From assembly GCA_024235615.1 (NCBI GenBank), contig JACKMB010000001.1, positions 744,001 through 808,000 of the forward strand: 64,000 bases of DNA, given 5' to 3'. The stretch is from Thauera sp. Its GTDB lineage: Bacteria; Pseudomonadota; Gammaproteobacteria; Burkholderiales; Rhodocyclaceae. Below are positions 59,991 through 63,221 of the stretch, piece after piece. A program made the position numbers and the translations under genes. The notes under the pieces were generated by a model. The model saw only the letters and a list, made by a program, of their open reading frames with translations. It did no database searches and was not told the DNA's origin. Numbering within the stretch: the stretch's first letter is position 1; each line of letters begins with the position of its first letter.

Positions 59991-60500
59991 TCAGTCGCGC
60001 ACTGCCCGCTCCATCAGGCAGGCGCCCTCGCCATAGCCAGGCGGCAGCGCCCCCGGCACCACGGCGAAGCCCTGGCGCACCCAGAACGGCAGCGCGTCGG
60101 CGAGCGCCACCAGCCGCATCCCACGATGCCCCGCGCCATCCGACCAGTCGCGCACGCGGCCGAACAGCGCCGCCGCAACGCCCAGCCCGCGCGCCGCCGG
60201 CGAGACCGCGAGGTCGTGCACGAAGCCATGCGCGGCGCGCGCGGGCAGCGCCTGCAGCGGCGCATGCAGGGGCGGCGCGCCGGCGTCGCCCCAGGGATGG
60301 GCGAACACGTAGCCCACCACCCCACCATCCGACTGCGCGAGCCAGCACGCCTGCGGCGCCAGCGCGAGCTTGCGCCCGAGCACCGCGGCCGACTCCTGAT
60401 AGCCGTCGCCGTAGGCCGCACGCTGGATCGCCAGCACGGCGGGCAGGTCGTCCGCACGCAGCGGCCGCAGGACCGGCCGCGCGGCCGCCGCGTGCGCCAT
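59991..60500 (-). CDS. GNAT-family N-acetyltransferase
   Basis: Acetyl-CoA-dependent acetyltransferase of 169 residues. The acetyl-CoA loop is in VHDLAVSPAARGLGVAAALFGRVRDW (R/Q-x-x-G-x-A form), with the usual strand VGYVFAHPW before it and MRLVALADALPFWVRQGFAVV after. Substrate unknown. Starts at ATG 60500, 2 bp after the hemB stop, so it is probably cotranscribed with hemB. Confidence 0.88.
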   Translation of the reverse strand: MAHAAAARPVLRPLRADDLPAVLAIQRAAYGDGYQESAAVLGRKLALAPQACWLAQSDGGVVGYVFAHPWGDAGAPPLHAPLQALPARAAHGFVHDLAVSPAARGLGVAAALFGRVRDWSDGAGHRGMRLVALADALPFWVRQGFAVVPGALPPGYGEGACLMERAVRD

Positions 60501-60502
60501 CG

Positions 60503-61666
<1,164 letters not shown>

Positions 61667-61747
61667 TCAGGTGAGGGAGTCATCTTAGCAGGCAGATGGC
61701 GCCGTGCCCCCAGGCCGGCCATCTCCCGCTTCACCTCCCTGAGCGGG

Positions 61748-61773
61748 TGCCTCACGCCTGGTGAGGCATTTTT
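61748..61773 (+). terminator. First intrinsic terminator of the candidate small RNA
   Basis: 8-bp perfect stem TGCCTCAC/GTGAGGCA, 5-nt loop, then TTTTT. On the - strand the flanks are A-rich, so it does not terminate ysxC. Confidence 0.8.
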
Positions 61774-61812
61774 GCCCCCGACTACGTCCCCTGGTCGGGG
61801 GCTTTTGTTTTT
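61774..61812 (+). terminator. Second intrinsic terminator of the candidate small RNA
   Basis: 9-bp perfect stem GCCCCCGAC/GTCGGGGGC with an 11-nt C-rich loop, then TTTTGTTTTT. It overlaps the ysxC 3' end in antisense. Confidence 0.85.
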
Positions 61813-62468
61813 GCGGCCGGCAAAGCATCGCCCGCGGCGGCAGGCGTGCCGGCCGCGTCCTCGGAAGCCGCGCCGGGCGGCACCAGCCAGCCGCCGATCA
61901 CGCGCTCGACCTCCTCCACCCCGCTCTTCTTGAGACTGGAGAACAGCTGCACGCTGACCTGCGGCCCGAGCGGCTCGAGCGCGCGCCGCACCTCCTGCAG
62001 GGTCGCCGCGGCAGCCCCGCGCGAGAGCTTGTCGCTCTTGGTGAGCAGCACGTGCATGGGCCGGCCCGAGGGCGCGAACCAATCGATCATGTTGCGGTCG
62101 AGAGGCGTGAGCGGATGACGGCTGTCCATGATCAGCACGAGTCCGATCAGGCTCTCGCGCGTGCGCAGGTAGGTCTCGATCAGCCCCGACCACTGGCGGC
62201 GGATCTTTTCGGGCACTGCGGCGTAGCCGTAGCCGGGCAGATCGACGAGCAAGGCGCCGTTGTTGAGGCGGAAGAAGTTGATCAGCTGGGTGCGCCCGGG
62301 CGTCTTCGACACGTAGGCCAGGCGCACATGGCCTGCGAGGGTATTGATCGCGCTCGACTTGCCGGCGTTGGAGCGCCCTGCGAAGGCGATCTCCGCCCCC
62401 GAGGGTGGCGGCAGCCCCGAAGGCTTGGCGATCGAGATTTCGAATGTTGCGTTGCGGAACAGAGGCAT
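61782..62468 (-). CDS. ysxC: Ribosome biogenesis GTPase YsxC/EngB
   Basis: Essential GTPase of 228 residues in 50S assembly. G1 [17 protein letters not shown] (about residue 29), G2 [12 protein letters not shown]3 [13 protein letters not shown] and G4 LLTKSDKLS are all present; EngB-type start [18 protein letters not shown]. The last 35 residues are an Ala/Pro-rich tail. The stop overlaps the terminator of the candidate + strand small RNA. Divergent from the cytochrome c4 gene. Confidence 0.96.
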
Positions 62469-62591
62469 GGATAAAGATCACCGGAAACCGCGCCTTGCGC
62501 GGCAAACAGACCTCATCGCATCGCGCAATCAGGCGTTCGTGTATTAGAATACCTCGTTTGAAACAATCACTCACGGCTTTCCGAGGACATC

Positions 62592-63221
62592 ATGATCAAG
62601 CGTTCCCTGCTGCTCTCGTCGCTTCTGCTGGTCGCCGGCGGCCTTCAGGCCCAGGACCAGGCCCCGGACCTCGAAAAGGCCAAGCAGACCGCCGAGACGG
62701 TCTGCGCGGCCTGTCACAGCGCCGATGGCAACAGCCAGCTCCCGGCCAACCCGAAGATCGCCGGCCAGCACGAGGACTACCTCTTCAAGCAGCTGCGCGA
62801 GTTCAAGGGCTGGAACGGCAACCCCCCGGTGCGTGAAAACGCGATCATGGGCGCGATGGTCGCCGGCCTCGAGGAGGCCGACATGCGCGGCCTCGCGAAG
62901 TACTTCGCCTCCAACGAGCTGAAGCCCGAGCCGGCCAAGAGCCTGGGCACCATCGAGCTCGGCCAGAAGATCTGGCGCGCTGGCATCGCCGAGAAGGGCG
63001 TGCCCGCCTGTGCAGCCTGCCACGGCCCCGCGGGCGCCGGCATGCCCGCGCAGTATCCGCGCCTGTCCGGCCAGTTCGCCGAATACACCGAGGCGCAGAT
63101 GAAGGCCTTCCGCGACGGCGTGCGCCTGAACGATCCGAACAGCATGATGCGCATGATCGCGATCAAGATGACGGACCCGGAAATCAAGGCCGTCGCCGAC
63201 TACGCGACCGGCCTGCGCTGA
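62592..63221 (+). CDS. Dihaem cytochrome c4
   Basis: Periplasmic electron carrier of 209 residues, probably donating electrons to terminal oxidases. Signal peptide KRSLLLSSLLLVAGGLQAQ. Two CxxCH haem sites: VCAACHSADGN (about residue 38) and ACAACHGPAGAGMPAQYPRLSGQ (about 140), each in a c-type domain of about 90 residues with likely Met ligands (NAIMGAMV; SMMRMIA). It precedes resB, a haem-lyase component that matures such cytochromes. A TAGAAT at 62545-62550 may be its -10 box. Confidence 0.95.
   Translation: MIKRSLLLSSLLLVAGGLQAQDQAPDLEKAKQTAETVCAACHSADGNSQLPANPKIAGQHEDYLFKQLREFKGWNGNPPVRENAIMGAMVAGLEEADMRGLAKYFASNELKPEPAKSLGTIELGQKIWRAGIAEKGVPACAACHGPAGAGMPAQYPRLSGQFAEYTEAQMKAFRDGVRLNDPNSMMRMIAIKMTDPEIKAVADYATGLR

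Follow-up and report, generated by a model that had tools for sequence, protein, structure and literature searches.

We analysed a 64,000-nucleotide stretch of a Thauera sp. contig (hereafter the window), in which a predicted small RNA (sRNA) gene lies on the plus strand between two minus-strand genes, hemB and ysxC/engB, the place expected of its family (Table 1). The likely hemB start is an ATG near 61519. The ysxC/engB gene matches E. coli yihA in locus L139 (49%, tblastn), and an RNA ending at 61812 would overlap the last 31 nt of its frame, which stops at 61782. The predicted RNA is about 119 nt long in its full form and about 80 nt if it ends at the first terminator. The four hairpins (H1–H4), two U-tracts and three C-rich loops that a preliminary description had read from the letters are all present: the loops of H1, H2 and H4 are C-rich, and that of H3 is GCCTG. 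A simple terminator scan found H4, in two overlapping rows, and did not find H3 as a terminator.

Table 1 Features of the hemB–engB interval, in window coordinates
Feature	Position	Strand	Evidence
hemB, delta-aminolevulinic acid dehydratase, divergent left neighbour	60503–61564	−	Longest frame; Pfam ALAD, 463 bits on 60506–61519
Candidate RpoE/AlgU-type (ECF sigma) promoter motif: −35 GGAACTT 61660–61666, N16, −10 TCTTA 61683–61687	61660–61687	+	Sequence reading
sRNA gene, anti-hemB family, four hairpins	61694–61812	+	RF02837; models R1 and R2
H1, stem AGAUGG/CCAUCU, loop with GCCCCC here	61694–61724	+	Co-variation
H2, loop TCACCTCCCTG / UCACCUCCCUG, candidate Shine-Dalgarno-pairing site	61725–61747	+	Loop conservation
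H3, helix 61749–61767, stem GCCUCAC/GUGAGGC, then U5 61769–61773; first terminator	61749–61773	+	
H4, helix 61774–61802, loop with GUCCCC, tail TTTTGTTTTT 61803–61812; second terminator	61774–61812	+	
ysxC/engB/yihA GTPase gene, convergent with the sRNA	61782–62468	−	Open reading frame; Pfam MMR_HSR1, P-loop GTPase

An Rfam scan of the window matched RF02837 (anti-hemB) at 61722–61810 with 73.3 bits against a cut-off of 49.5 (E = 2.8e-15), spanning 81 of 81 model positions. This is the only Rfam family above its cut-off in the window, where the Spot 42 model (RF00021) found no match; sub-cut-off matches at the site were mmgR (RF00519, 24.3 bits), 6C (23.8 bits), PAGEV (18.6 bits, on the other strand) and two more. 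The genome holds one copy above cut-off, and the model exceeds its cut-off in 28 of 31 genomes of a set of relatives (this genome included) and in 190 of the 300 genomes sampled from the order. Two models of the RNA, R1 and R2, gave 90.5 and 83.5 bits on 61694–61809, the window sequence being in both training sets. Folding of 61680–61815 yielded −66.3 kcal/mol compared with −48.98 ± 3.74 in 200 dinucleotide shuffles (z = −4.63, none as good), while the two terminator-like sites in the region against 1.3 expected are, alone, not rare. It is conservation (the RF02837 match, its presence in kindred genomes and the co-variation described below) that decides, and on this ground we take the gene as real.

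Judged by sequence conservation, then, the four hairpins do form a genuine regulatory sRNA, one that already has a catalogue entry as anti-hemB. The proposal of a plus-strand sRNA gene with two serial terminators is supported, but the RNA is not novel in itself: the family was known as RF02837 and, in Burkholderia cenocepacia, as ncS04, and the window copy is a new member. What is new here is H1 as part of the RNA, the RpoE-type promoter motif and the link to sRNAs of the polA/engB locus. The passages on ncS04 in the B. cenocepacia study (PMC5688073) describe a 105-nt RNA with a mapped start and a 3′ end from RACE, seen by Northern blot and dRNA-seq, and its Table 2 lists no significant change in any of 7 conditions; according to the same passages, the Rfam matches of the candidates conveyed no function. 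The published length fits the four-hairpin form (106 nt in locus L037). A literature search on RF02837 found nothing in the open-licence literature. The window RNA resembles anti-hemB/ncS04 (‘Burkholderia RNA 7’) in scoring above the cut-off and in sitting between hemB and engB.

Possible paralogues in the same genome, six weak RF02837 matches, were rejected. Four were inspected: L002 and L006 are by look ordinary hairpin-plus-T stretches, L003 resembles coding sequence and L005 a simple repeat. R2 likewise gives low scores to three of the six matches (19.0, 18.8 and 11.1 bits). A small protein inside the RNA, as SpfP in Spot 42, was likewise rejected; the window RNA holds a 22-codon frame (MAPCPQAGHL...), and the frames of relatives vary in start, length and sequence, with many having none.

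That the stems should co-vary among relatives had been named beforehand as a test that could refute the RNA, and co-variation was found. In an alignment of 31 Burkholderiales sequences taken from the predicted start (A1; aligned with MAFFT, structure from the window; 98.8% of cells paired), both sides had changed at 15 of 27 pairs, compared with 6.2 ± 1.3 in shuffles (0 of 500 reaching 15) and with 1 to 6 pairs in slid controls. By helix, both-side changes fell on 5 of 6 pairs in H1, 1 of 6 in H2, 4 of 7 in H3 and 5 of 8 in H4. H2 is thus nearly invariant among the betaproteobacteria of A1, and in a gammaproteobacterial alignment not fitted to the structure 4 of its 6 pairs changed on both sides. 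The Rfam model begins at H2 and leaves H1 outside, whereas the window has H1; since 5 of 6 H1 pairs change on both sides in the 31 relatives, H1 belongs to the RNA, and its inclusion in the preliminary description is borne out. RNAalifold on the gammaproteobacterial alignment A3 recovered H2 and H4 and neither H1 nor H3. Alignment A2, with both-side changes at 27 of 27 pairs, leans towards the R1 structure because it was fitted to it.

While stems vary, loops retain their letters. We counted loops in 32 betaproteobacterial (beta) and 47 gammaproteobacterial (gamma) sequences aligned to R1, some loci contributing several copies, with expectations from letter shuffles. A C-rich H2 loop is present in all 32 beta sequences and in 40 of the 47 gamma ones (3.2 and 5.2 expected), and its CTCCC is near-invariant (31 of 32 and 39 of 47). 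C-rich H4 loops occur in 30 of 32 and 23 of 47 (3.8 and 6.7 expected) and C-rich H3 loops in 5 of 32 and 34 of 47 (1.1 and 6.4 expected). For H1 the counts, 5 of 32 and 3 of 47, are near expectation (3.0 and 3.5), so the GCCCCC of the window is a local feature; the earlier emphasis on C-rich loops holds for H2 in relatives but does not generalize to H1. Similarly, both terminators of the proposed tandem exist in the window, but the arrangement is mainly a beta trait, with TTTT after H3 in 17 of 32 beta versus 6 of 47 gamma sequences. The H2 loop UCACCUCC presumably resembles the 3′ end of 16S rRNA; the 16S anti-Shine-Dalgarno pattern GGATCACCTCCTTTCT is absent from this genome's own assembly.

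The neighbouring genes bear on whether the RNA acts in cis. HemB was found within the examined stretch at 50 of 57 over-cut-off Burkholderiales loci, on the side where gammaproteobacteria have polA, and EngB on the opposite strand at 50 of 59 loci, two of those loci being sub-cut-off. The RNA overlaps engB at 41 of 50 beta loci versus 6 of 23 gamma loci, some of the distances depending on frames extended past the aligned part. Because the overlap is frequent among beta loci and infrequent among gamma loci, cis action would be at most secondary, and the suggestion that the RNA acts chiefly on ysxC in cis is not upheld.

We therefore regard it as quite improbable that the RNA regulates ysxC/engB as a cis-antisense transcript, or hemB, to which the name anti-hemB points. 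The 31-nt overlap in the window, the many overlapping beta loci and the frequent convergent arrangement with engB speak for it; against these stand the few overlaps in gammas, the placing of the conserved letters in loops, polA as left neighbour in 16 + 7 of 40 gamma loci, the existence of copies away from engB (L102 and L103), and the direction of the RNA, which starts upstream of hemB and leads away from that gene. Scarcely credible is an interval with no RNA gene at all, its hairpins serving as terminators of an upstream plus-strand gene or of ysxC. Two terminator-like hairpins do sit between genes here, but the T-runs are on the plus strand, so the hairpins cannot terminate ysxC, and the upstream plus-strand frames face hemB on the other strand and have the look of antisense frames to it. 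The conservation of H1, H2, the promoter motif and synteny also contradicts this account, as does, in the passages cited above, the mapping of ncS04 by dRNA-seq, RACE and Northern blot (PMC5688073).

The preliminary description had missed both the polA/engB locus and the RpoE-type promoter motif that ends about 7 nt before H1 and places the predicted transcription start at about 61693–61694. GAACTT-N16/17-TCNNA is the known RpoE/AlgU promoter class. With a regular expression written after viewing the upstream regions of 59 Burkholderiales and 40 gamma loci, a like motif was found at 45 of the 59 (0.29 expected), including 19 of 19 own-genus loci, and at 22 of the 40 (0.09 expected), leaving 18 gamma loci at which the expression finds none. 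A tally of the 59-locus set by family gave 18 of 25 Burkholderiales families with the motif and 7 without. In a second set of at least 118 loci found by the H2 core alone (2 of 120 were not counted), with taxa assigned from record titles, the motif was, among the matches listed, absent from all 28 Comamonadaceae-type and all 12 Burkholderia-group loci, in contrast to the window; among the same matches, 22 of 38 loci from other taxa named in their titles carried it (0.12 expected), as did 8 of 40 whose records showed no title (0.08 expected). Where the GGAACTT motif would stand, the Burkholderia-group loci L173, L178, L180, L185, L188 and L197 have another upstream block in common, TGGTATATCATA or TGGTATATGATA.

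The genome encodes RpoE (TIGR02939, 344.7 bits), and we infer that it would recognize the window motif. Across the 300 genomes of the order, RpoE was found in 198 of 206 sRNA-positive versus 61 of 94 sRNA-negative genomes (Fisher p = 3e-12, uncorrected for phylogeny), leaving eight sRNA-positive genomes without an RpoE match. In the window's own genome we found the exact motif once, a second site differing from it by one mismatch, and a looser form at two places, and the motif is absent upstream of rpoE at 10 of 10 loci examined; autoregulation of rpoE by the same motif is unsupported, and a local RpoE regulon is thus undocumented.

Searching the class at E 1e-5, RF02837 matched in 88 of 274 genomes, 14 of them above cut-off, both counts including this genome and one of its order. 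Among the matches listed, EngB could be placed in 59 of the 87 genomes other than our own (one of the 87 in its order), and 28 could not be judged; in 42 of the 59 the match is convergent at the engB 3′ flank, in 3 it lies there on the same strand and in 14 it is elsewhere (11 on another contig, 3 far away on the same contig). We fetched 40 gamma loci from the 86 genomes outside the order, all chosen as RF02837 matches and combining the best-scoring with a hand-picked spread; 34 of them lie within 1.5 kb of polA and/or engB. Polymerase and GTPase genes flank the RNA as polA upstream and engB downstream at 16, with polA only at 7, engB only at 7, both genes with the RNA reversed at 4, and neither within 1.5 kb at 6. 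The PolA of L112 was confirmed by Pfam, and E. coli carries polA, spf and yihA in the same order and direction. R1 matches 39 of the 40 loci at E < 0.01 and the remaining one, L114, at 0.054.

Some gamma loci have unusual layouts. At L109, L116, L117 and L131 the RNA sits between polA and engB with its direction reversed relative to both; L102 (G577) and L103 (G466) each carry two tandem copies, with a tmRNA gene about 1.5 kb away and no polA or engB found close by; and R1 finds four copies in L133 (L133/L156, G487) and five in L134 (G578). In the phylum, R2 at E 1e-5 matched 12 of 259 genomes, 10 in the order (our own included) and 2 in the class. Under the strict filters of this search the sX13 and ErsA genomes themselves (G329 and G478) were not found, and for this reason, the number of out-of-class genomes also not being shown, it says little about other classes.

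Spot 42 (RF00021, the spf product) stands at the same place and in the same direction relative to engB/yihA in E. coli. It differs in its control by cAMP-CRP and in its single-stranded pairing regions, and R1 and R2 gave no match at the spf locus at E up to 10. At E 1e-4 the sX13 model (RF02232) found matches in 7 of the 274 class genomes. Two of these are above cut-off, both beside polA, three fall on anti-hemB matches (G487, G399 and G549), one lies beside engB (G453) and one elsewhere (G439). The ErsA model (RF01719) matched two of the 274, one above cut-off in L159 with polA 100 nt upstream and a GAACTT-type motif (GAACTT...GTCATA) before it, and the other on a G487 copy that is also an anti-hemB match. 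In the tandem array of G487, RF02837, RF02232, RF01719 and RF02344 all match at E < 0.01 with scores short of their respective cut-offs; none of these four families is shown with a clan. Neither the sX13 nor the ErsA model matches the genome of the window at E 1e-4 (cut-off 50 for both).

R2, built from 79 beta and gamma sequences, was also applied to loci outside its training set, giving 50.6 to 57.7 bits on the G487 copies and 42.6 on L158, the sX13-model match next to engB. L157 does not test R2, since it and L125, which is in the training set, are one locus. The two sX13 loci scored 23.1 and 22.6 bits and the ErsA locus 19.4, whereas the background, two loci of our own genome without the RNA that had been preselected as weak RF02837 matches, scored 19.0 and 18.8, so that score does not set ErsA apart from background.

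Passages of the sX13 study (PMC3771888) describe that RNA as confined to Xanthomonadaceae and invariably located downstream of polA, give its loops as 4C, 4C and 5C, and report that it acts without Hfq and that repression needs both the C-rich loops and G-rich motifs at the ribosome-binding site. A possible likeness to the window RNA lies in the C-rich apical loops. It differs in that the left neighbour in the window is hemB rather than polA, that the two sX13 loci show no GGAACTT-type motif, and that the H2 stem is not kept in sX13 alignments. The preliminary description drew this comparison by pattern only, and there may be more to it, because some relatives at gamma engB/polA loci match both the anti-hemB and the sX13 models, below cut-off. 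ErsA, AlgU-dependent in the relevant passages of PMC8395346, is a polA–engB intergenic gene, of whose two sides the window has that of engB and not that of polA. What sets it apart from the window RNA, in the passages describing it, is a long U-rich unpaired domain and Hfq dependence for several targets; its pairing with anr is predicted to run through a U-rich region. The mode of action may therefore differ inside the family, ErsA depending on Hfq and sX13 acting free of it. We found no open-licence literature treating Spot 42, ErsA and sX13 together, although a paper linking two of the names may exist.

Taken together, we consider it likely from the sequences that sX13 is linked to anti-hemB. 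A link of ErsA is plausible, from the bridge, the place and the promoter and not from score, and is the weakest of these; Spot 42 is a positional parallel only. We lean, somewhat, towards descent of anti-hemB, sX13 and ErsA from one ancestral beta–gamma sRNA of the engB/polA locus with an RpoE-type promoter and a Shine-Dalgarno-masking CCUCCC, the Burkholderia group, Comamonadaceae and Xanthomonadaceae having later replaced the promoter and thereby uncoupled the RNA from stress. Convergence, in which C-rich hairpins followed by a terminator resemble any covariance model and the site is shared by chance or because it is permissive, seems to us the rather less credible account. It would explain the low R2 scores of sX13 and ErsA beside a background of about 19 bits, bridge matches that all stay below the Rfam cut-offs, a Spot 42 that goes unmatched at the same site, and the weak matches of alphaproteobacterial models; yet the sX13 and ErsA models place their weak matches on anti-hemB copies, on the same bases, synteny is common to the anti-hemB relatives, sX13 and ErsA, and the promoter motif extends to the ErsA locus L159. 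Also unlikely, in our judgement, is a constitutive housekeeping C-rich sRNA read from a sigma-70 promoter, with GGAACTT-TCTTA unused or serving another ECF factor. Such an RNA would fit the unchanged ncS04 in Table 2 of PMC5688073, the motif-less Burkholderia-group, Comamonadaceae-type and rpoE upstream regions, and three f31 genomes (G137, G273 and G303) that encode RpoE yet lack the motif at their sRNA loci. But a simple scan of 60500–63000 found no sigma-70-like promoter, and the motif, standing about 7 nt before H1, is far above chance in the own genus, in most families tallied and among the gamma loci, 22 of 40; the flat expression of ncS04 may itself reflect the missing motif at Burkholderia-group loci.

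Our preferred reading, to which we assign a probability of about 0.62, is that the window RNA is an anti-hemB RNA with an RpoE-type promoter that masks Shine-Dalgarno regions through its H2 loop, and that it represents the betaproteobacterial branch of an engB/polA family including sX13 and perhaps ErsA. Its family membership, four-helix structure, loop conservation, promoter-like motif and synteny are seen here. In its own organism the RNA is predicted to be expressed and to depend on RpoE: envelope stress would free RpoE, which would transcribe anti-hemB from the RNA's own ECF sigma promoter, and the two serial terminators would give forms of about 80 and 119 nt. The main pairing site would be the H2 loop UCACCUCCCUG, which presents a CUCCC anti-Shine-Dalgarno stretch on a stable stem, probably assisted by the loop of H4, also C-rich, and in the window by that of H1. 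CUCCC-type loops are found in C-rich-loop anti-Shine-Dalgarno sRNAs such as RsaE, the Neisseria sibling sRNAs and the alphaproteobacterial ar14. By pairing with purine-rich Shine-Dalgarno regions, the loops would act in trans to lower translation of a set of mRNAs, the putative targets probably being envelope or metabolic genes. This mode is likened to that which the sX13 passages describe with G-rich motifs near start codons (PMC3771888).

As far as sequence can tell, the collected loci tie a catalogued Burkholderia RNA to the polA/engB locus, with bridging sequences, in several gamma families. If the preferred reading is true, three separate Rfam entries should form one clan, anti-hemB gains a testable role as an envelope-stress sRNA, and non-pathogenic Azoarcus-type strains are a place to study the ancestral form. 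Among gamma members, the alphaproteobacterial models ar14 (RF02344; L156 and L155) and Atu_C7 (RF02501; L155) match weakly, which hints either at a broader kinship among C-rich sRNAs or at similar composition. Single records also stood out: within the order, G252 has five RF02837 matches; L206, from Nitrosospira briensis, has two H2-core matches 123 nt apart; and L237 (CAMDRJ010000108.1), titled a Klebsiella pneumoniae metagenome-assembled genome, shows a beta-like hemB–sRNA–engB arrangement and is perhaps a mislabelled bin.
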